The notes beneath the pieces were generated by a model that had not been told where the DNA came from, did not search any database, and worked only from the letters and a program-made list of their open reading frames with translations. Below are positions 6,240 to 53,535 of a stretch of DNA of 64,000 nt, in pieces; the first letter of the stretch is position 1, and the number at the start of each line of letters is the position of its first letter. The DNA lies in NCBI RefSeq assembly GCF_963678975.1, contig NC_089272.1, forward strand, positions 41,421,391 to 41,485,390, in the 5' to 3' direction. The stretch is from Dysidea avara. Taxonomy: Eukaryota > Porifera > Demospongiae > Dictyoceratida > Dysideidae. A program made the translations under genes and the position numbers.

Positions 6240-7740
6240 AGCACATTAAATTTCTCTCCCCACTGCTACTACACTTTGCACAAAAATATTTAGGAATCTA
6301 CATTCATATCAGCACTGTCTATAACAAATGGCTTTATTGACTTGCAACGGAGTACCATGCTATTCGAGGTGTTCAAAGTTAATTGTACAGTGCTCCCTCA
6401 ATCATCTGGTCCCTTTGGGACCAAGACATGTACAAAAAAGTCAAAGCCCGTTCATTTATATACACTCATTATTATACAGATCCGGTTGCTAGCAGACCCT
6501 CAGTGCAATATAAGTAACTTGTAATAATCCTTGAAATTGTACATACTCTGCACTGTAAAACTATTATTACTATTACTAGATCCCTTCTCAAATACTCTAG
6601 TAGAACATACATCTTAGACAAAATACTCTAATAAAGCAGTCGTTTCTATTGTTCGGATAAGGCCTTCAACTATGCAGGTTGCAGGCAATCATTAAATAGT
6701 TTTGATGTTTTATCACAGTTTCTCACAGCTTTACATTTAGCTAGTGATAGTGAGTGCTTCCCTCCCATTCACCCAGTTGATGTGCACACAATGACAGTCA
6801 CTGTCAAGTAAGATACTCAGAGCACACAACTAACCAACAATTGCAGTTTAAATTGTACCATATAATACCTGTAGCCAATAGGAAACTGAGGAAGGAATTC
6901 AAAAAATGAAAGAAAAAAAGATGGGGAGCAGAACTTGGTTATCAGGAAAGGAAAAATTGTTCTAAGGAAAGTTACTGTGGTTGACAGCCTGAATGACAGA
7001 ACAAAGAATGCATCACACTCAAGTTGAGTATATAACTGATCAAGTCATTATTTCTTGTCTTCAGACTAGCTAGTTTGTTTTTATTGTAAAAAGGCTGGCA
7101 GAAGTAATTTCTACCAGACCCTCAGCACATTTACTTTTGTACATACTGTACTGTGTGTGCATGACTTACTTCTTAGTCACTTGTATGTTGTACTGGAATT
7201 TAATGCCCGAGTCAAATATGCTCAAACTTTTGCCCAAATGCTTTCACGAATTTCCCAAAATTTTCACCTATTATGCTCTTCAGTGTACATTCCTATTATG
7301 CTTGCATTGTGCTCCTAGGTTAGCAACATTTCTCTTACAATTATCTCGGAATATTAGAGAGAAAGAGACGTCTTGTTTTGCTAAGACAATATACAACTTA
7401 AGTACAGGGGACTAGACTCAGGGGTACTATGCACTGGATGGACAGTACAAGAGCCCTAGAAAGACTTACACTATTAAATTACAATACAAAAATAATAATT
7501 ATAGCATGCAGAAAAGTTCAGTTTAGGCAAACTGGTAGATCCCAGCTCTATAGAATTAAAAATCCTGTATATATGAGCAGGGGACAGCAATGGGAGCAGC
7601 CTGTTCAAACAGGGATCTTATAATCTTCTTTGTCAAGCATTGGCAACTTGGGCAATTGTTTCTGGTATAAAATGGCCTAAACAATCAATCTTGATGGAAA
7701 TGAGATTAACAGATAATCCAGAAAGCTGAAGGTCATGTTG
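6240..7740. other. Gene-free stretch
   Basis: Two degraded copies of the CTCTAATAGAG motif lie near 6586-6642. The open frame 7137-7415 has no recognisable domain. I see nothing else of note. Confidence 0.4.
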
Positions 7741-10215: not shown

Positions 10216-10632
10216 TAATGCACCTATCAATGTAATCCCTGACTACCACTAATACAGGCTGAGGTGGGGGTTTGCATCACTGAAATTTACAATTCCCCAC
10301 CTACTGGGGTAATACTGGTGATGCAAACCCCGACCAAGTCTCGACCTGCGAACCCCGGGAATACTGGGGCTAGGGGGGGATTTGTACAGTTGTGTGGTGT
10401 TGGTCTAGTGATGTATGAACGTAATAGCTAGTACCCGAGCACTCCTTCCTAAACTGAAAGCACACACCTTTGCTGTCCAAGTGAATTTCTTTAGTGAAGA
10501 CAAATCCCCACTATGTTGGGGAAATTTAGCAATCAATTCCCCCACCATCCCCAACCTTTCCCCACCCTCAGCCCGTATTAGTGGTATAGTAGTCCTATAG
10601 TAGTTGGGCATTACATTGATAGGTGCATAATG
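10216..10632. repeat. Fold-back repeat, 417 bp
   Basis: The left arm (10216-10266) and right arm (10559-10632) are inverted copies sharing CCTATCAATGTAAT, CCACTAATAC and CAGGCTGAGGTGGGG-type segments. The centre is rich in CCCCAC/GGGGT. No target duplication was identified. Confidence 0.55.
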
Positions 10633-12825: not shown

Positions 12826-14064
12826 TTACCTTTCATCAGACTGCCCTTCATTAGACTGCCCTTCATTAGACTGCCCTTCATTAGACTGCCCTTCATTAGA
12901 CTGCCCTTCATTAACCACATTAATATACAGGGGCCCTGCAAAATCCACACCAGTATGTGAAAACGGTGGGTCTTCAAGTACTCTTTCTGTAGGTAGATCT
13001 GGTGGGAGAACTGAACCATAGGAATGACCCAGTCTTCTGCAAGTCACACATGATCTAACTACCTTGCGAGTAGTCTGACGCCCCTTCAATACCCAAAATC
13101 TCTCTCTCATGAAGGTAAGGGTTTGATTCACTCCATTGTGTTTTACTGACTCATGTGCCTTAAGTATCAATAATGCAACAATAGGGTGGTTTGATGGTAA
13201 AAGAGCTGGTTGCTTGCCAGATAAAGGCAACTGAGAGAGATTGATCCTACCCCGGCATCTCAACACTTGTTTATCATCAAGAAACAAACCAAATTGGTCT
13301 ATGAGAGGGGGGCATGGGCCAAGTGGCTTGAGCAAATAACAGAATTCACAATCAAATGACAGTTTCTGGATGGTACGAATCCATAGAGCTTCAGCATCAG
13401 TAATCTCCTTACCATTCAAGGAGGATCCACAATCGGTCCGGTCTACAGTTCCTCTTAATCGATTAATGAATCTAAGTACATAGGCCGTCACCCTTAACAA
13501 TTTTCCAATATCACTATAATGAGAACTATTCATCAAATTACTCATACAGGCTACAGGACACTCCTTTGTCTGGTCTTGGCTGGTTAATACCTGAGTGAAT
13601 GTGGCAGGGTTCCTTAACAATTCAACCTCAGCTTCCTCATTACAATCATCACCCAATTCAGGGGTGTTAATCACAGCACGAGCAATAAACGAGGGTCCAT
13701 CCCACCACAACCTGCTCTTCAACAGTTCCTTAGCAGATAAACCTTGGGAAGGGAGATCTGTGGGATTCTGTGTACCTGGGCAATGGTTCCAAACACTAGG
13801 GTTCGTCAACTTCCTAATTTCCTCCACCCTATGCTGAACATATTGTTTCCATCCCTTTCTATTACAAATCCAGTACAGGACTGTCATGGAGTCGGTCCAG
13901 AGATAAGTGCCATGCAGGACTGGCAATGACAATGACACAGAATGTACTAGTCTAGCTAATATCAAGGCACCCGAGAGCTCTAGCCGTGGAATGGTTTGCT
14001 TCCTTGTAGGGGTAACCCGAGTCTTGGAGCAAAGCAATCTAAACTTCAGTGTGATCATCCGCAT
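12826..14064 (-). pseudogene. BEL RNase H and integrase N-terminal half
   Basis: The frame starts in the RNase H region (PRLELSGALILARLV, then WTDSMTVLYWI). It continues through the integrase zinc-binding HHCC region (HESVKHNGVNQTL...RSCVTCRRL) to the first catalytic aspartate in TGVDFAGPLY. It ends in the NEGQS repeat array. Within itself this is the longest intact open segment of the element (412 codons). Upstream and downstream parts are in other frames. Confidence 0.75.
12833..12912 (-). repeat. 15-bp tandem repeat inside integrase
   Basis: About five copies of the plus-strand unit ATTAGACTGCCCTTC lie in tandem. On the minus strand they encode NEGQS repeats placed just after the first catalytic Asp region (HTGVDFAGPLYI) of integrase. 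The integrase frame shifts immediately after the array. Confidence 0.85.
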
Positions 14065-14209
14065 AAGTTGAACTGATGTATAAAACTACTGCATACGCTT
14101 GTTCGGATTCATCATAGAACCCATGGAGACCAATAGAGGTAGGGTATTGGTCAACAAGGATACAACATCTAGGCACTCTTAATTCAGCAAAATTCTCCAG
14201 ATTGCTCAC

Positions 14210-15497
14210 TCATCCTTTCCTCAGTTCTTCAGGTAAGGGCTCGTCCCAATTCACGCGGTCATTACATAGGTCTTGAAACATCACCTTTAGTGTGATCACG
14301 AATGGACTCAATAGCCCCAAGAGGTCGAACAAACTTGTAGTCACCTTAAGGACAGATCTCTTAGTTTTAGACAGTTTGCTGGCATGTTGCAACAACTCAC
14401 TAAAATCAAATGCAAACTCATCACTGAAACTGTTCCAATCGATGCCAAGCAGCTTGCACACACTATTTTCAACACATGTTACTTCAGAAGACCCTTTCGA
14501 TTCGTCTTCCCCCCCCCCCCCCTTTGGGATGGTAGACAACACTCAGATTGCTGTATTAATTTCAGGAGGTCAATAGAATTTGAATCCCATTTTCTGAGAT
14601 TAAACCCTCCTCGATACATGAAGTGCTTAGATACCCTATATAGCTCAAAGGCTTCTGGAACATTTGCACCTCAGGTCATCAACGTAAAGAGATTGATCAA
14701 TCAGGTCAACTATTCGAGGATATTCAGAACCATACTTTTCTACATGTAGTGCAATGACAGCCCCTAATACTGCAAGTGATGGCCTTAACCCAAACACTAG
14801 TCTTGTAAATCTGTACGAAACTATTTCGCTGTCTGCCTTAAAGGGTTCTTTCAGCCAGAGGAATCGAAGCATGTCTCTATCTTCCTTTGCTATGCCGACC
14901 ATAAGAAAGGCCTTTTCTATATCAGCAACAAGAGCGACTTCAGAATCGAATCATTACGTTAAACAGCTTGGGAATAAGATTCGGCCCAACTTGCAAGCAA
15001 TAATTAAGTGAGAGATTATCAGGAGAAGAAGCAGAGCCGTCATAGACAATTCGCACATTTGTGGTGCTTCTATTCTGTTTCACTACAGGATGATGCAGCA
15101 TGTAATGGACACAAGTGTCATGGGCCATTGGATTACCATTCACTACAGGTTCAATAATACCAAGACTCAGCTGCTCTGTTATTAGGGATTGGTATTCTCT
15201 CAGAATGTCAGGTTCTTTGTTCAACCTTCTCTGTAAGTACTTCAGTCGATTGAAACATAAATTGTAATGATCTGGAACTTCACACCTTTCCCGAAGCCAT
15301 GGCAGGCCTACTTCATACCGTCCCTGTGTGAACTTGACATTGGTAAGAAAGAGCTCATTGTTACATAAATCAGTGTCACTTGAATCTTCACCAATCCCTA
15401 TAGATTCAACCTCCCAAAACAATCTCAGAACATCTGTAAGTCCATCTCCATTACAGTCAGATAGCCCCAGTGTGCCGGTTAGCTTACACAAAGACAA
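14210..15497 (-). pseudogene. BEL reverse transcriptase, broken in three frames
   Basis: Segment 14940-15497 carries the RT N-terminal part (YDGSASSPDNLSLNYCLQVGP). Segment 14645-14902 carries the palm with LVFGLRPSLAVL and the catalytic YVDD box. Segment 14210-14542 carries the RT connection region (LLGLLSPFVITLKVMFQDL). Frame changes occur near 14920 and 14600, and a C-homopolymer near 14510-14522 lies next to one break. Confidence 0.75.
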
Positions 15498-16470
15498 ATG
15501 TGTTGGACAGACTGGACATTGCTAAAGATCCAGATAGCAACCAATCCAACTTACTCCGGACTGCTGTAGGGCCTCCTTCAATTTGAACTACTTCCTCCCC
15601 CACGATACTCCAATAATAGTCCGATCCTATAAGCACGTCAATCCCTTCAGGGGAATCAGAGGGTGGGTCTGCCAAATCCAGTTTAAGCAAACTAGGAAAC
15701 CGCTCCAAATTGACGACCAGGTTTGGTTGGGAGGAACAGATGGTTGGGAACCATAAGGCTTGTAGTTGCAAACTATCACTGCCATTAAGTTTCTTTAGAC
15801 GAATCTGAACCAGGTCACAACTCTTCCCCTTGAATCCTGGTTCACCAAATGTATTCAACTGCAGTCTTTCCCTTTTAAGAGGTTTCAGGTTAAGATGCCT
15901 CACAAGTGTATCAATGACATACGATCTTTGGCTGCCAGTGTCAAAGAGAATTCGGACATTACCAGACCTACCACTAGTGCCATCAGAAGCTAGTGCACAA
16001 GCTGTTTGCAGTAAAACCAATTTATCTCCACTTGCAGCAGAGTTACTGGAAGTGTTTGAAGTGTTGGAAGTGGTTTCTATAGCCTCAGTGGGAGGAGTTG
16101 GTTGTTCAGTAACAGGTGTGTCCTTGTTACAAATGGATTGATGGTGCCTTTTATGACAATGCCTGCATTTCTTGGTAGATTCACATTGCTTTGCATGATG
16201 TTGTGGCTTCAAACAATTAAAACATCTCCCTGTTCGAATCAAAAAGGCACGCCTGTCCTTCACATCCTTAACACTAGAACAATCAGAAGGATAGTGATCT
16301 CCTGTACAGTAAACACACCTATGTGTTTGCCCTCCAGCATAGAGGGAACTAGCAGTGGAATTAGTTTTTGTTGTGTGAGTTGTCTTAATTGACATTCCCT
16401 CAAGCACATTAGTAGTTTCTCTGGCCTCTACTTCAGTTTTGATCGTCTCCAACAGATCCTGTGATTCCAA
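15484..16470 (-). pseudogene. BEL gag zinc knuckles and aspartic protease
   Basis: Near the N-terminus are Cys-His knuckles: CVYCTGDHYPSDC (CX2CX3HX4C), CFNCLKPQHHAKQC (CX2CX4HX4C) and a third Cys/His cluster, CRHCHKRHHQSIC. These are followed by a Thr/Ser-rich linker and the protease active site ILFDTGSQRSYV (the DTG motif). The later segment EGIDVLIGSDYYWSIV is typical of Pao-type peptidases. The knuckles would package RNA and the protease would cleave the polyprotein. The segment overlaps the RT frame and cannot be translated as one polyprotein. Confidence 0.8.
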
Positions 16471-16590
16471 ACCTCTCCAGGGTGTGCTCTGGCCATTCTC
16501 AGTCGAACTTCATTAGGGAGCTTGGGCATAATCAAAGGAATAAGCATGATATCATAATGGTCCTGATTTATACCCAAGGATTCCAGTCCT

Positions 16591-35879: not shown

Positions 35880-36330
35880 GGATTGCTGCTAGAGTAGCCT
35901 ATTCTTAAGCAATTCTAACAAGCCATATTGAGCAAACTATAGCTCATCAAAATGAGGTGGTTAAATATGTGGGCAATTCTGAGCAAGATTAATGGCATGA
36001 ATTCCATCTGGCTTGGTCTGATAGCAATGCTTTCACCATAAGTAACTCTCCAGAGCTTTATCAAGATTTTATTTAAATTTCTGTATGTGTACAAAAGTTC
36101 AATGCTCCATTGCAGCTGTCATGAGTTGCTAATACACAGCATAGCTAGTCTGCACGTGGGTCCTTCATTTTATCAGAATGTCCCAAAACTTACAAAAACA
36201 AAAATCAGCAAAATAAAGCCTTTATCACTGAAATATTACTAATTTGCAGCTGCTCGATTGCTTTGATCTTAATTGGACAAATCACCTAATTTGTCACTCA
36301 AATTTCTGTTTTTGAGCTAAACTTCTGTTT
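35880..36330. repeat. Duplicated segment, empty-site copy
   Basis: This is the paralogue of 28640-29565 without the hAT MITE. Where the other copy has GTCTGTAG-MITE-GTCTGTAG, this one reads GTCTGCACGTGGGTCC. Confidence 0.75.
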
Positions 36331-36369
36331 TGTAGTATGAATGATTCTCTGACACTGGTAGAAGATCTG

Positions 36370-36480
36370 AACTGTATACATTGTATTTGTACAGGCTACA
36401 TTGGAAATTTGATATCTGCTGTAGTAATTAACACCTTAGAAATTTGACACCTGCCTTAGTAATTAACACCATTAGAATTT
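36370..36480. repeat. Tandem pair of about 40 bp
   Basis: GAAATTTGA(T/C)A(T/C)CTGC followed by TAGTAATTAACACC occurs twice in tandem. Confidence 0.6.
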
Positions 36481-36762
36481 AATATTACATGCTCTTGCTA
36501 CCAATCAGTTTTATATTCATTTTGTGTGGCCAACATAATTGTGTACAAGAGAACATGTTTGGCCTCTTTTCCCAGAATTAATTTATATGATGACATGTCA
36601 TGTGTGAAGCCTTTTAAGGGTGCTCTGTACAGTCCGCCCACGTAACACGTTTCCACTGTATCTCACAATTGGATTTAGCAATCAAATGGAACTTCTCTCC
36701 TAGAAATAAACTACCACCAGCGAACAGTTTGATCTCAGCTCCACTACTAAATTCACTGTAAA

Positions 36763-36833
36763 ACCCGAGTTTCAGTTTTTCACTGCAAATTAAAACCCGA
36801 GTTTCAGTTTTTCACTGCAAATTAAAACTAGTT
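36763..36833. repeat. 35-bp tandem duplication inside the transposon
   Basis: AAACCCGAGTTTCAGTTTTT followed by CACTGCAAATTA occurs twice in tandem, in the region 3' of the gene. Confidence 0.8.
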
Positions 36834-37455
36834 CTACAGTTTACGCCCTAGAGACTTGGTTCTTTCGTTGTACACTAATCAACACTATACAAACTAACGA
36901 GCGTTTCTAATTTAGTCCTCTTGCTTCTCCATCTTCAAATACTTTCCCTCAACCTTGGCGTAGCAATTAACCTTCCTTCTTCACCTGTCTTCACCACTAC
37001 GCCATAGGTGCTATCAAAAAATGACAAACGCTCTTTTGTAGCAAATATACTTGGGTAACTCGTCATAAATTTTCATGTCTGTCACGTACAAAATGACAGA
37101 GGAGTTCTAATTGTAGTGAAATGGTATAAATAATGGGGCGTGCGCACTTGCACACAAACCACATCCTATTGTTTCCTTAATTGCATGACCGGAATAATAA
37201 TCGGCCAATTGTGGAAAACACGGATATGGACCATGAGGAGCATAAAGAACAAAGCCAATAAGGAAACGGTACGTGTCTTATCATTGGTGAACATTTGATG
37301 CAGTGTAGTGGCTTTTTAAAAAGCCATTGAAATTAGGCAAGGATGGCGGAAATCATTCCGTTGCCCCACCAGAGAAATGTTGCCACAACATGCGACGCCA
37401 TCGCTCCATTATCCGAGGAACAACTTTGAGAAGCTTGTCGAACTCTTCATAATTA

Positions 37456-40400
37456 CTACAACGTGGACTGAAGATTACTGTAAGTGAGACGCGCCTCCTT
37501 CAAGCGTCTGGCCATCGCCGGCATACAGTTTCCCATCCTGGATGTGTACTCTTTTGAAGAAGCCCAGTCTTCATGCATCCTCTTCCAAGATGACACTACT
37601 TCTCCTTTGCTACAAATGGTCAGCTGGGATAGCACTGACTGGAGTGTGGTGGCAGTGAAAAGCCTTACTGTAGCTCTTACATCGTCCATGGTGCGATGAG
37701 CTATGAAAGTACATATTTATATAAGTGTTTCTGACACGTTTACTTTACCATTATATGTTTCACCAGGAAAAAATTTGGCATAAAGCTTCTCCAGCTTGAA
37801 GTACCTGCGTTCTTGTGCAGTCCATCCCTCAAAAATTGTGCTGCCATCTTTGCTGGGCTGGGAAGAGCAGAGACAAGCTAATTAAGACGTTTATTGACAA
37901 CTCACCCGTTTGCAGTCATGAAGTGTGTCAGCAAATTGCCAATTGATAGAATTGAAAATGTTCATTTGCTCCTGCCGGTAGACTTCAGCCACCAAAATGA
38001 CAAAGTCAAATACAAATCCGTTGTGAGCCACCAGGACTAGACAGCAAAATTAATAGTGATGGATATTATGATATTGCATATCTTACCAGGACGATATGAT
38101 TCACCATGCTGCTCAGCTTCCTGTGCACAGTCCCGTATCCAGTTGACAAACCTTGGAAGCACTTCAGATAAAGGCTTTTGATTGTGGAGTGTGCTGGTAT
38201 ATATGCCACATAAATCTGAAACTATTGAGAGAAGGGTACCAAGTTATGTCGATACATTCAGATAATTTACCTTGCTTAGGGATGCGTCTAGCAGTATAGC
38301 ACAAACTAGAGAACTCATTGGTACTGACTGACACACCTTCTGGTACCACTACCTGTGCTGCCAACTCCACAATATGATCCTTATAAATGTGAAGTCCTGT
38401 TGTCTCACAGTCGAAAACAAATAGCAATGGCAGGCAGTTGGGATCACTGTTACAGTCAGCTCCATCAGAAACTGGATCATCATCATGAACAAATAAACCA
38501 TCATCATCTAAGTCATCACCGGAGCCATTGTTGTTCTCATCACCAGACTCATCATTGCCATTATCCAGTAAACTGTCACCCTTATAGCTGGAAGTGCTAA
38601 CACCTGTAGTCTTCAGAGTATCCATCCGCGCCTTCTCCATTTCATGGCGCTGATTAGCCTTAGTCTTCAAGGAGCTCCTATAAGGTACAATATGAATTCT
38701 TTGTATGAATTCTTTGTAAAATAAATATATATATTTTAACTTGTACTTCCGGTACTCAGGTGTGCCTCTGCGTGTGTGCAGTCTCTGCCAGTTGACATGC
38801 TCCTTGAAGATAGCCGCGACTCCAGGAAAAGGTACATCCACCTCCATCATCCACAAACACAGCACTTTCCACAAGGGACCAAGATTCTGAAGAAAAAGCA
38901 GGTGCAGTATTTATTGTGTACACAATTCAATATAATTATACCATTACCTTATGACAGATTGCCATATTTGTCTTGCATATGTAGTGTGAATGATGAAGGT
39001 CCACCTTCTTTCCACGATACTTGAGGGCAAGTCCATGGAACCCCTCGATGCTATTAGTGGTCATCCTTCCTTGTGGAGTGATGTACTCCTGGGGTCGCTT
39101 GGCCATTTCTTGAAGGAGATGTAAAAAGGCATCCGACTGCTCCACACATTTCAGAGGCTTCTGAGTACTGTAAGGAGTGCCGTCCTCTGCTTCCTGAAAC
39201 AACAAAGAAAAAATGGGAGTTTCTCATGTCGTACTGATATCTACCTTAGGATGGTATTTACACCACTCTGAGGAATGCTGATCCAGGCAGTAGTGACAGT
39301 GGAAGTTCAGCAGAGCCTCAGAAAATGCCTTGAGGGGATCATCTGATGTGAGTACATCAGGGCAAGCCATTATGTTCCGCAGGGACTTCTTTGCTCTGGT
39401 GATAAGCTGTTCTGTTATCCGGGCCTTACACTTCGGTACGCACTACATATATTTGACCATGTATGTGAATCAAGAGTAGTGAGGCTCTACAGTGGAACCT
39501 GTAATGAGGACATCTGAATGCTTGGTAATGTTCCCAAATAATTTGCTAACATGTAAAACTGACCTGAAAAATCAGGACACTTTTGGTTGGCCCCAAGGTG
39601 TACCTAATATACATGTTCCACTGTACTACTGGTACTTATGGGTCCTACATGTAATTTACACTTTACACGGAATTATTTGCAAGCTAAATTAATTTCATGT
39701 TTAGAGAAGCGTGTTTGCCTCTGTACTTTCCAATACTTGGTTTGCTGACCTTGCATTGAATAGCCTTTATTTTTACTAGGTCCCGTTGGAAGGTTTTGGC
39801 AGTGTGATTGCCACAATAAGTGATCCTTATTTCTGGGAACACATCCGTCACTATATTACAAGCCGAGGTATCATGGTCCATGACAATCTGGATTATTTTA
39901 AATTCCTTCTCCTTAACTTCTTCCAGGATACATCGCAGCATATCTCCCTCAGCTCCAGCAGATGTCCCAGCCCAGTTTGCTCCTGAACCTCGTTTAGTCC
40001 GGTGGGCGTACCAAGCGATCTTATCACTGACAGTATCGTGAAGTGTTGCCGAAGAATTGTTTGAATGATGGCCTCGAGTGAGATAAAAGCCATCAAATGA
40101 GGCTATCCACTTAAATTTATCTCCACGATCTGAAACCATTTCACGAACTTGTGCACAAGAAGAGTTGGCAAGCTCCTCAACATGCCCTCCCAGCCAACTG
40201 ACAACTTTCATCCACTGCCTTTCAGACATTACTGGTAAGCCCATCATTCCTAAGGTGCCCTTGTATTCAGCATAATATTGTCCGTTCATCAGAAATGTCA
40301 GGACAGGGTAGTTCAAATCCCATGAAGGAGCAGGACCATGGTGACCACCAGCTGGGTGGATTGTGGGTGTGTGCATACCATCCATGGCAAAAACTGTGAT

Positions 40401-41150
40401 GCTCTTCCCCTCTAGCAATGATTCAAAGTTCCACCCAGCTTTCTCTAGCTGAGTGACAACTTCGTCAATCAAACTCTCAGGAGAGTACTCAAGTGAATTG
40501 TCATCAATGGTAGCACCATCATCGTCACTAAATACAACAGGTAGCAGATTTGAAGTAGCAATATTGATTTACCTTCCAGCTTGGTCATCTGTATCTGTGC
40601 TGTCAGTGGCATCAGGAGATCTCAGAGTGGCTACAACAGAGCTAGTGCTGTTATCCCAAAAATCATCACTAGTAATATTTATGAGGTAAATATTGTGCCA
40701 TGTCATAGTATTTTACCTGTCTGATAATTCACTATCTTCAGTCCTGGATATACTAGGAGAAGGCCATTCATTAGCTTCTTGACCAGACCCACTTGAATTG
40801 CTGCTTGTTCTCACTAGTGATATTTGGAGAGACTCCTTGTCAACACTGGATTCAGTAGGTGGTCTAGTCGAGACAGTGCTAGATGCTTGGCTGTAAGGTG
40901 AGTGTTAGTGGCAGTAGAATTAATATATAATGCTGCTTACTTTGTAGGTGTACCATCATGTTCAATGACCGAGTTGCCTACTCCAGCAGTTGTTACTTTT
41001 TTTTTAAAAATATTGTATAAAATGTTTTTACTATGAACCAGTTATGCTGTATTGCTTACCATTACTGTTTTTACTGTTGTATGGCTTTGGCTTCTTCCTG
41101 TGTGGTAAGCTGTTTGCCCACGAACGACACCGTTTCTTTGGCAATGGCAT
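37456..41150 (-). CDS. DDE transposase fused to a DEDDh 3'-5' exonuclease (934 aa, 13 exons)
   Basis: Exons in gene order: 41150-41060, 40995-40941, 40890-40717, 40668-40573, 40527-39750, 39442-39245, 39193-38948, 38886-38741, 38677-38271, 38215-38087, 38036-37906, 37857-37749, 37700-37456. All introns are GT-AG and the phases agree; the sum is 2,805 nt. The start gives MPLPKKRCRSW, with basic NLS-like patches; residues 31-140 are Ser/Asp-rich. Transposase core: D284 in ASFDGFYLTRGHHS, D356 in IVMDHDTS, CGNH 377-380, a Cys/His cluster at 447-462, E514 in TTNSIEGFHG. An acidic linker follows (about 634-672). The exonuclease has ExoI VFDCETTG (D684, E686), ExoII HNGFVFD (D784) and ExoIII HRTMDD (H855, D860). 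Roles: cut-and-paste transposition plus DNA or RNA 3' trimming; the latter is inferred. The intron between exons 8 and 9 is 63 nt and in frame, so retention is possible. Confidence 0.85.
39490..39623. mobile_element. Pogo/Tigger-like MITE in intron 5 of the transposase gene
   Basis: The ends CAGTGGAACCTG and ...TGTTCCACTG are inverted and flanked by TA on both sides (39488-39489, 39624-39625). CAGTGGAACC termini with TA duplication resemble pogo/Tigger elements. The larger element at 43005-43932 has the same termini. Confidence 0.75.
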
Positions 41151-41506
41151 GTTGAAATACGCCCTGAAACCAAACTAACAGCTGCTATGAAGCCACAGAC
41201 AAATTAAGTAATTAATGGTAGCCATAACAATCTCATTAGCGCAAGCTGTATGACAGCTAGCTGTGACTACGCCAACTGTACAGAGCACCCTTAAAAATAT
41301 TATCAGCCCAGGTGCTACTATATATCCTAGCGTAGCTTAGTGGGTTGTCAGTATAGTGTTAATGCTGTGATATTGTGCTGTGTGAGTTTGTTGCTAGTAC
41401 TGTAAGTGTGATTTCAAATATTGCTTACTTGTATGTGTGTGTATTACCATGTGTGTGTTTTTATATATGTGCATTGGGTGTATCATAATTTAGTACAGTA
41501 GCTAGG

Positions 41507-41565
41507 AAAGCTGTACTGAAAATAAGAAAGCTGTACTGAAAATAAGAAAGCTGTACTGAAAATAA
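41507..41565. repeat. 20-bp unit, three tandem copies
   Basis: AAAGCTGTACTGAAAATAAG is repeated three times (the last copy truncated). Confidence 0.9.
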
Positions 41566-41799
41566 CAGTATTACAAGTACTGTTATTATGTAGACATTTT
41601 TATGTTTGTAAGTTTTACTGAATGAAGGTTAGGACTAGCTAGGAGACTTGATTACTACTTTTGAAGCTTAAATGCTGAACTAATACAGTACTGTATTATA
41701 CAGATCATGAAAGTATGCATCGATTTTATAAAGCAATTAATCCTTGCCTTTCTTTAATGACTTCTTTTGCGGTATTGGTTAGGTCCAAACATGACCATG

Positions 41800-45617: not shown

Positions 45618-48475
45618 GATAATTTGCAGCTGATCTCTCTACTGGGTGACTTGAAATGTAGCTGAACTCTCTACAGGGTGATCTGCTTGTACGTAGATGA
45701 ACTCTTTACAGGATTCTCTCTACAGGGTGACTTGTTTCTAGCTGGTCTCTCTACAGGGAGATTTGTTTGTAGCTGAATTCTCTACAGGGTGATTTGTTTG
45801 CAGCTGAACTCTCTACATGGTGGTTGCTTTGTAGCTGAACTCTCTAAAAGGTGACTTCTTATAGCTGAACTCTCTACAGGGTGATCTTTTCATAGCTGAA
45901 CTCTCTACAGGATGATTTGTTTGCAGCTGAACTCTCTACATGATGATTTCTTTGTAGCTGAGCTCTCTACTGGTGATTTGTTTGTAGCTGAACTCTCTAC
46001 AAGGTGATACTTCTAGGTGATCTCTCTACAGGATGACTTGTTTCTAACTAAACTCTCAACAGGGTGATCCGTTCATAGCTGAACTTTCTACTGGGTGATT
46101 TGTTTGCAGCTGAACTCTCTACATGGTGGTGTCTTTGTAGCTGAACTCTCTACAAGGTAACTTCTTCTAGCTGAACTCTCTACAGGGTGACTTGTTTCTA
46201 GCTGATCTCTCTACAGGGTGATCTGTTCATAGCTGAACTTTCTACAGGGTGATTTGTTTGCAGCTGAACTCTCTGCATGGTAGTTTCTTTGTATCTGAAC
46301 TCTCTACAAGGTAACTTCTTCTAGCTGATATTTTTACAGGGCATATTTGTTTGTAGCTGAGTTCTCTACAGGGTGATTTGTTTGCCGCTGAACTCTCTAC
46401 ATGGGAGTTTCATTGTAGCTGAACTCTCTACAATGTGACTTCTTCTAGCTGAACTCTCTACAGGGTGACTTGTTTCTAGCTGATCTCTCTACAGGGGGAC
46501 TTGTTTCTAGCTGAACTCTCTACAGGTGATTTGTTTTCAGCTGAACTCTCTACATGATGGTTTCTTTGTAGCTGAACTCTCTACAAGGTAACTTCTTCTA
46601 GCTGATCTTTCTACAGGGTGATTTGTTTGTAGCTGGATTCTCTACAGGGTGATTTATTTGCAGCTGAACACTCTACAAGGTGACTTCTTCTAGCTGAACT
46701 CTCTACAGAGTGATTGATTTTTTTTGCAGCTGAACTCTCTACATGGTGGTTGCTTTGTAGCTGAACTCTCTAAAAGGTGACTTCTTCTAGCTGAACTCTC
46801 TACAGGGTGATCTTTTCATAGCTGAATTCTCTACAGGATGATTTGTTTGCAGCTGAACTCTCTACATGATGATTTCTTTGTAGCTGAACTCTCTACAGGG
46901 TGATTTCTTTGTAGCTGAACTCTCTACAAGGTAACTTCTTCTAGCTAATCTTTCTACAGGCGATTTGTTTGTAGCTGAGTTCTCTACAGGGTGTTTGTTT
47001 GCAGCTGAACTCTCTACATGGTAGTTTCTTTGTAGCTGAACTCTCTACAGGGTGACTTGTTTCTAGCAGATCTCTCTACAGGGTGACTTGTTTCTAGCTG
47101 AACTCTCTACAGGTGATTTGTTTGCAGCTGAACTCTCTACAAGGTAACTTCTTCTAGCTGATCTTTCTACAGGGTGATTTGTTTGTAGCTGAATTCTCTA
47201 CAAGGTGATTTATTTACAGCTGAACTCTCTACAAGGTGATTTCTTCTAGCTGAACTCTCTACAGAGTGATTGATTTTTTTGCAGCTGAACTCTCTACATG
47301 GTGGTTTCTTTGTAACTGAACTCTCTACAGGGTGATTTGTTTGTAGCTGAACTCTCTACAGGGTGATCTGTTCGTAGCTGAACTCCCTACAAGGTAACTT
47401 CTTCTAGCTGATCTCTCTACAGGGCATATTTGTTTGTAGCTGAGTTCTCTACAGGGTGTTTGTTTGCAGCTGAACTCTCTACATGGTAGTTTCTTTGTAG
47501 CTGAGCTCTCTCCGATGTGACTTCTTCTAGCTGAACTCTCTACAGGGTGACTTGTTTCTAGCTGATCTCTCTACAGGGTGACTTGTTTCTAGCTGAACTC
47601 TCTACAGATAATTTGTTTGCAGCTGAACTCTCTACATGGTGGTTTCTTTGTAGCTGAACTCTCTACAAGGTAACTTCTTCTAGCTGATCTTTCTCCAGGG
47701 TGATTTGTTTGTAGCTGAATTCTCTACAAGGTGATTTATTTGCAGCTGAACTCTCTACAAGGTGACTTCTTCTAGCTGAACTCTATACAAAGTGATTGAT
47801 TTTTTTGCAGCTGAACTCTCTACATGGTGATTTGTTTGTAGCTGAACTCTCTACAGGGTGATCTGTTCGTAGCTGAACTCCCTACAAGGCAACTCTTCTA
47901 GCTGATCTTTCTACAGGGAATATTTGTTTGTAGCTGAGTTCTCTACAGGGTGATTTGTTTGCAGCTGAACTCTCTACATGGTAGTTTCTTTGTAGCTGAA
48001 CTCTCTACAATGTGACTTCTTCTAGCTGATCTCTCTACAAGATGACTTGTTTCTAACTGAACTCTCTACAGTGTGATTTGTTTGTAGCTGAACTCTCTAC
48101 AGGGTGATTTGTTTGTAGCTGAACTCTCTACAGGGTGATCTGTTCATAGCTGAACTCCCTACAAATTAACTTCTTCTAGCTGATCTCTCTACAAGATGAC
48201 TTGTTTCTAACTGAACTCTCTACAGTGTGATCTGTTCATAGCAGAACTTTCTACTGGGTGATTTGTTTGCAGCTGAACTCTTTGCATGATTGTTTCTTTG
48301 TAACTGAACTCTCTACAAGGTAACTTCTTCTAGCTGATCTCTCTACAGGGCAATTTGTTTGAGCTGAACTCTCTACATGATGGTTTCTTTGTAGCTGAAC
48401 TCTCTATTAGGTACCTTCTTCTGGCTGATCTGACTGCAGGGTGACTTGTTTGTAGCTGAATTCCCTACAGAATAA
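45618..48475. repeat. 31-bp minisatellite array, about 90 units
   Basis: The unit begins GCTGAACTCTCTACAGGG and continues TGATTTGTTTGTA. Variants with TTCTTCTA or GGTTTCTTTG tails alternate. A distinctive unit with GAGTGATTGATTTTTTT recurs near 46707, 47260 and 47787, implying a higher-order period of about 530-550 bp. 31 bp is not a multiple of 3 and stops abound, so the array is not coding. A smaller related array is at 54290-55620. Confidence 0.9.
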
Positions 48476-52249: not shown

Positions 52250-53535
52250 ATGACAAGCGAAACCTTAGATGTTGAAACGGATCAGGCTGAGACTGAGAGT
52301 TTAACGGAAAGCCAGCCCTCATCATCAGGTACTGATACTATTGATGGTACTAGTGTACAGTTAATTTCTAAGCGGAATACTACCTCTAAAGTATGGGACT
52401 ATTTCGGATTTGTTCCAGGCAACCCAACTAACTTTGACACTCCTACCAGTAAGTTATGCTTTAAGAAAGTAACAGCAAAGTGGTCTAATACGAGTAATTT
52501 AACCAGTCATTTATGAATGCATCACCCTGTACAGTTCAGTGAACTGCAAACACTGTCAGGTCCGGCGAAGCAATCAAAATCTAGAGAATCCAAGTCTGCA
52601 GCGGCTGGTACACCAACTATCACTGGTTGTTTTGAGAAAGACAGAAAGTACGGAAAGGGTTCAAGGGAACACCAATCTCTTACTGATGCTGTAACTCGCT
52701 GCATTGTAACTGATATGTTGCCAATGCTCAAGATCGTAAAACATTGCATTTGGTTCCTAGTTGGCAAGATAGGTTCCTACAGTCTGTTGTTGCAGCTATC
52801 AAACCTTTTCAAAAGATAACTGATTTGCTATCCGGTGAAAAGAGGGTTACTTGCTCAGCAATAAAACCAATGATACAGTTAATCCAAGAGACAATGGTGA
52901 ACTACCAAGATGATGACACTGCCTTAACCTGTGAAATTAAAGATCGCATCAACAGTGATCTAGAGCATTGTTATGCTGGTACAGAAGTCAGCATGCTCTT
53001 GGATAAATGTTCTTTCCTTGATCCAAGATTTAAGGACAAGTACAAATTAACTGATGAGCCAGTACAAGTTTTACTACAAGAAGCATCCATGTTGGAGTCT
53101 GAATCTGCTGACAGGGTTGTGTCCAACTCTCAAACAGGGCAGAATGAAACAGAAAGTAGCGAGCCCCTCACTAAGAAAAGAAAAGGAAAATTCAGCTCAA
53201 TATTTGGTAAGACTGCTACTTTTACTACTAACTCGCACTCACTTACTGTATCAGAAAGAATTCAACGCGAAGCTGAGATGTATTTGCAATATCCCATCTT
53301 AGATGTTGATGAATCACCACTACAATGGTGGAGCTTAGAAGCAAGCCGCATGCCACTACTATCTTCTGCAGCCCACAAGTATTTATCTGTGTGTGCTACA
53401 AGTGTGCCATCTGAAAGAGTATTTAGTATTGGTGGCAATGTAGTACGAAGTAAGCGAAATTCCATCAAGCCACACAAAGTGAACCAATTAATCTTTCTTG
53501 CCAGCAGCTTAAGCAAACACATATCAGACACTTAA
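52250..53535 (+). pseudogene. hAT transposase (BED finger to hATC domain), inactivated
   Basis: The N-terminus has VWDYFGFVPGNP and KLCFKKVTAKWSNTSNLTSHL, a BED zinc finger in which the first Cys of the usual CxxC is replaced (TSKLC). A TGA at 52514-52516 interrupts it just before the final HHP. The frame continues to DAVTRCIVTDMLPMLKIV. It then shifts near 52740, where the middle of the catalytic RNase H-like fold appears deleted. The C-terminal 263 codons are open: FLDPRFKDKY, then WWSLEASRMPLLSSAAHKYL and SVPSERVFSIGGNVV, the full hAT dimerisation domain. The nonsense codon, frameshift and internal loss rule out function. Confidence 0.85.

Follow-up and report, generated by a model that had tools for sequence, protein, structure and literature searches.

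A Kolobok transposon of the sponge Dysidea avara that joins a DDE transposase to a DEDDh exonuclease, probably in a lineage outside KolobokD

The window analysed here is a stretch of 64,000 nucleotides of the Dysidea avara genome (contig NC_089272.1, positions 41,421,391 to 41,485,390). At 36618..41290 it carries an element whose single gene codes for both a DDE transposase and a DEDDh exonuclease, which raises the question of the transposon family to which such an element belongs and of whether its fused protein is new. The element is most probably a Kolobok-superfamily cut-and-paste DNA transposon of a lineage that is separate from, or sister to, KolobokD, sharing an exonuclease-plus-tail module with that group without having its CCHC finger. 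Identity and lineage placement are together given a probability of roughly 85%. The fusion itself is already known: the sequence-only reading had presented it as not yet described in any transposon and was wrong on that point, as a family with the same architecture was published as KolobokD (PMC9587614). The new part is a Kolobok-exonuclease variant from a phylum not listed for KolobokD, without the CCHC finger but with the shared nuclease module.

The ends of the element are a perfect 16-bp terminal inverted repeat (TIR), GGGTGCTCTGTACAGT, found at 36618-36633 (+) and 41275-41290 (-) with 0 mismatches. With TTAA and two further matching bases on each side it forms a 22-nt perfect inverted repeat, the longest perfect one among the inverted repeats listed for 36300-41600. 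Repeats are abundant in the window, with 335 perfect 16-mer inverted pairs spaced 0.5-10 kb, and a chance inverted repeat was rejected since this pair is the only one of the 335 to be flanked by TTAA at both outer ends. A single copy with these ends is present in the window. Two sites, 6382-6397 (-) and 10375-10390 (+), each differ from the TIR by 3 mismatches (0.47 matches expected by chance) and are possibly decayed ends. Further perfect inverted repeats at 19048-19080/19688-19720 and 20773-20822/29353-29402, seen among the first 40 of the 335 pairs, are possibly ends of other elements.

Splicing of 13 GT-AG exons from the minus strand yields a product of 934 residues with D284, D356, CGNH at 377, E514, DCETTG (ExoI) at 682, HNGFVFD (ExoII) at 778 and HRTMDD (ExoIII) at 855. 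The catalytic motifs are intact. The gene has 12 introns, one of them of 307 nt. The features of the element, from its left to its right end, are:

36614..36617, strand., left TTAA target-site duplication (sequence, inverted repeat listing)
36618..36633, +, 16-bp TIR, left end, GGGTGCTCTGTACAGT
37356..37466, -, stretch in another frame that is probably the rest of the tail, with weak similarity to the tails of relatives
37456..37700, -, exon 13: ExoIII (HRTMDD), start of the tail, stop codon (splicing)
37749..37857, -, exon 12: exonuclease (splicing)
37906..38036, -, exon 11: ExoII (HNGFVFD) (splicing)
38087..38221, -, exon 10: exonuclease (splicing)
38271..38677, -, exon 9: acidic linker and ExoI (DCETTG) (splicing)
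38747..38886, -, exon 8: end of the transposase region; the NCBI protein is 2 residues longer where exons 8 and 9 meet
38948..39193, -, exon 7: E514, the third catalytic residue (TTNSIEGFHG) (splicing)
39245..39442, -, exon 6: zinc finger CLDQHSSEWCKYH between CxxH and E
39750..40527, -, exon 5: D284, D356, CGNH (splicing)
40573..40668, -, exon 4 (splicing)
40717..40890, -, exon 3 (splicing)
40941..40995, -, exon 2 (splicing)
41060..41150, -, exon 1: start codon, basic N-terminus (splicing)
41275..41290, -, 16-bp TIR, right end
41291..41294, strand., right TTAA target-site duplication (sequence)

Kolobok transposons are described with 5'-RR...YY-3' ends, unlike piggyBac, and with a DDD/E triad that has C/DxxH between the second D and E, where almost all groups but Kolobok1 also carry a zinc finger (described in part of PMC9587614). 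The element is flanked by a TTAA target-site duplication, its GG...CC ends fit the RR/YY pattern, and its D284, D356, CGNH and E514 align across relatives. The zinc finger between CxxH and E (CLDQHSSEWCKYH) is found in 13/13 proteins checked of the family to which the product belongs, for which we use the working label "sponge-type", the sole named host being D. avara (P0001). The sequence-only reading had noted that both Kolobok and piggyBac use TTAA; the ends, the CxxH, the zinc finger and the Pfam result support Kolobok over piggyBac. The DDE domain of piggyBac is DDE_Tnp_1_7. A Pfam scan to E 10 returned RNase_T, Mutator, MULE and DUF659 with no piggyBac model, and piggyBac was rejected for want of such a match.

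In the same scan, Mutator (PF20700) matches residues 206-451 with E 6.2e-13 and RNase_T (PF00929) residues 680-868 with E 2.6e-16, both above cut-off. The fusion of the two domains is real. NCBI protein P0001 (750 aa, isoform X2) starts at residue 187 of the spliced product and is identical to it through the end, apart from 2 additional residues at the boundary of exons 8 and 9; it spans both domains. Protein relatives were collected by searches that score about 8000 candidates with the most shared words, and all counts given here are of matches listed. P0002-P0013, some of them fragments, have 48-56% identity to P0001. The linker motif occurs in 18 sponge-type proteins; 16 of these, including the gene in the window and its NCBI entry, continue for at least 90 residues and all 16 have ExoI, while the 2 without ExoI terminate 23 and 35 residues past the motif. 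P0002 (862 aa), P0003 (831 aa) and P0005 (793 aa) each carry transposase and exonuclease in one listed protein. Nuclease motifs are degraded in some relatives (Y for H in ExoIII of P0005, K for E in ExoI of P0091). What the sequence-only reading had proposed for this locus, namely the 16-bp TIR with TTAA on both sides, a 13-exon gene of 934 residues and a transposase joined to an exonuclease that Pfam should recognise, was confirmed in turn by the perfect match of the ends, by splicing that placed each motif at its residue, by the two Pfam matches and by the ExoI of the linker-spanning relatives.

A number of relatives from long contigs are each listed as one protein of about 800 aa, and their genes may therefore lack the introns seen in the D. 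avara gene. P0098, P0099, P0105, P0122 and P0127-P0129 end just past the second D/CxxH stretch, near the end of D. avara exon 5, which hints at an intron shared at that place. Intron-bearing and intron-poor copies seem to coexist, P0002-P0005 reading through the exon 5 end. A search of viral contigs with P0002 gave 11 stretches that fit a pattern, none of which encodes a relative, and an Rfam scan of the window gave 0 matches.

The name KolobokD was given by Kojima and Bao in 2022 to Kolobok transposons with a DEDDh exonuclease; the hosts listed in the part of their paper that describes it are molluscs, arthropods and cnidarians, with no sponge among them, and a second zinc finger (CCHC) is listed after the first D (PMC9587614). 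A full-text literature search found the name, and the combination of Kolobok with DEDDh, in this paper only, and it found nothing on transposable elements of the Dysidea avara genome. KolobokE, in the same source, likewise has a Kolobok transposase with a nuclease domain downstream. Mussel protein P0014 and its relatives were taken as KolobokD by their hosts, CCHC finger and exonuclease. They share with the D. avara element the element-encoded DEDDh exonuclease and the order transposase, exonuclease and tail in one protein, and the nuclease modules are homologous, with weaker evidence for the core alone. The CCHC finger is present in 41/47 KolobokD-type proteins with a readable first D and absent from 6/47 (19/66 were set aside, their first D not being readable), whereas none of the 56 sponge-type proteins that have a first D shows it; 52 of them certainly cover the site, and the other 4 may not. 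The alignment has a gap of 17 residues at this site in sponge-type proteins. The two transposases are homologous yet distant (hhalign 98.8%, 23% identity), and Pfam Mutator matches P0014 with E 7e-86 against 6e-13 for the protein in the window. An exonuclease tree was made without P0036, P0063, P0077, P0024, P0035, P0038, P0033 and sponge-type P0007; P0048 and P0056 have no recognisable ExoIII in it and its root on the sponge-type rows is assumed. All sponge-type rows lie on one side of a branch with support 100/100. The absent finger and the distance between the transposases lead us to place the element in Kolobok and outside KolobokD. That it would instead be KolobokD proper, its finger lost in the sponge line, fits the domain order of P0014 and the common exonuclease-plus-tail module; the 0/52 count at the site, the divergence of the transposases and the 100/100 branch make this somewhat unlikely.

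The preferred reading, a distinct Kolobok lineage with a nuclease module in common with KolobokD, depends on the comparison of the exonuclease and of the region behind it. A KolobokD-type profile detects the nuclease of the window with E 2.7e-19. The tails behind the exonuclease match in a profile-profile comparison of 7 sponge-type and 27 KolobokD-type tails, in which the one control segment that overlaps the tail scored 32.3 and none of the remaining 15 exceeded 18.6; the match was weaker (80.2%, score 33.3) when two smaller tail alignments were compared. Among KolobokD-type proteins 31/40 have tails that match Pfam PML_C, whereas the PML_C model (PF25244) matched 1 of 14 members scanned, which is P0014, and none of the sponge-type tails. 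A SAM-like label for the tail may be proposed on the basis of PML_C in KolobokD-type proteins, the profile comparison and the description of PML-1 in a preprint (PMC12934764). According to the relevant part of that preprint, Exuperantia (Exu) and PML-1 are the only proteins known to have a SAM-like subdomain behind such a fold.

Compared with PDB chains, the sponge-type profile has its best matches in PolC (over the ExoI part), in 9l8a, an entry named exodeoxyribonuclease III, and in TREX2 (over the ExoII/III part). Structure comparison of the sponge-type nuclease left TREX1, TREX2 and Exu tied, while the mollusc KolobokD-type nuclease resembles vertebrate Plex9 (39% identity, E about 1e-56) far more than it does TREX; a Plex9-like nuclease is a feature of KolobokD-type and not of sponge-type proteins. 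Zebrafish Plex9.1 (PDB 9mrc, 9mrd) is among the closest known systems. TREX1 and TREX2 have the fold and the DEDDh residues in common with the element, but their solved chains are stand-alone nucleases with no transposase fusion. Exuperantia (PDB 5l80) and the PXL domain of PML-1 resemble it in an exonuclease fold followed by further helices; they differ in being called pseudo-nucleases in the part of the preprint that deals with them (PMC12934764), whereas the motifs in the window are intact. The fold alignment with Exu stops before the sponge-type tail, and VIA-align rows stop short of the tail in the sponge-type model, whereas in the KolobokD-type model they reach its start or barely enter it. 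These PDB neighbours and the three-way tie, set against the Plex9 affinity of KolobokD, could mean that the sponge-type lineage acquired a TREX- or DnaQ-like exonuclease in a capture of its own, separate from that of KolobokD. This is unlikely in view of the tail common to both groups, of the restriction of the SAM-like subdomain otherwise to Exu and PML-1 (as described in PMC12934764) and of the detection of the nuclease by the KolobokD-type profile.

Several results weigh against the preferred reading. Taken alone, the exonuclease core does not in every sequence come out nearer to KolobokD than it does to PolC: the protein in the window reaches 64.4 bits, the other 8 sequences 41.1-50.6. A plain HMMER search of KolobokD-type proteins with the tail profile was not significant (best 15.2 bits), and no structure match covers the tail. 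The D. avara product stops after LTYSNLQSTL, relatives extending about 40 residues further, and the other-frame stretch at 37356-37466 bears a weak resemblance to the missing tail (5.5 bits, a score reached by 0/300 residue shuffles). The tail thus seems to have been cut short by a frame change, and the D. avara copy may in consequence not be fully active. The evidence comes from the DNA of one genomic copy within the 64-kb window, and the literature search found no biochemical evidence for any Kolobok exonuclease.

DDE transposases cut paired transposon ends and join them to a new target. The element is most probably a Kolobok transposon, and its one protein consists of a DDE transposase with CxxH and one zinc finger, an acidic linker, a DEDDh 3'-5' exonuclease and the start of a helical tail. 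The transposase would cut the paired ends at TTAA and join them to a new TTAA, and the tail may help to hold nucleic acid. More tentatively, the tethered exonuclease may digest DNA 3' ends that arise from excision or integration, such as flaps, donor-site ends or aborted intermediates; the same functional guess on 3' ends is offered for KolobokD in the part of PMC9587614 on its exonuclease. Its targets could instead be RNA or host-defence intermediates (small RNAs, competing cDNA), as the similarity of KolobokD to ERI1 and exuperantia (reported in PMC9587614) and the RNA binding of Exu and PML-1 (reported in PMC12934764) might be taken to indicate. We think this improbable: the RNA binders are those called pseudo-nucleases, the relatives called catalytically active in the same preprint are TREX1 and Plex9.1, and fusion to a transposase suggests action at the transposition complex.

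The truncated tail and the single copy with these ends in the window would also suit a domesticated host gene with relic transposon ends, which is very unlikely given that the ends and the TTAA duplication are perfect and that the P0001 cluster holds 8 member sequences, perhaps isoforms. Two neighbouring genes merged by the gene model, for which the 12 introns with one of 307 nt might speak, are scarcely credible and were rejected on account of the joined NCBI model and of relatives P0002, P0003 and P0005.

Other repeats lie elsewhere in the window. Remains of a BEL/Pao-type long terminal repeat retrotransposon occupy 12829-16509 (-), with Pfam Peptidase_A17 and Integrase_H2C2 in 12829-14085; the open reading frames 14943-15521 and 15487-16509 have 0 Pfam matches and are retrotransposon-like by eye only. 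A hAT transposase C-terminal dimerisation region (PF05699, E 8.4e-20) is at 52714-53532 (+), and a large minisatellite of about 89 copies of a 31-bp unit at 45716-48470.

For the Kolobok superfamily, the element means that the nuclease partner is a deep feature, found beyond the phyla first reported, and that the CCHC finger and the exonuclease, paired in the published lineage, are separated in a sponge. The Plex9-like nuclease and PML_C tail of mollusc KolobokD-type proteins suggest a transposon source for PML exon 9. A joint reading, to which we give somewhat less than even odds, is that a catalytic exonuclease with a SAM-like module has been in Kolobok since before the split of sponges from other animals, that its presence in a sponge lineage without CCHC puts the capture before the finger arose, and that Plex9 and PML exon 9, perhaps also Exuperantia, would be host genes derived from such transposons, the direction of transfer being inferred. 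If that reading is true, the arm of the PML family that restricts retroelements would be a component stolen from a transposon. The element also points to a testable transposon source for the exonuclease portion found in PML, Plex9 and Exuperantia.

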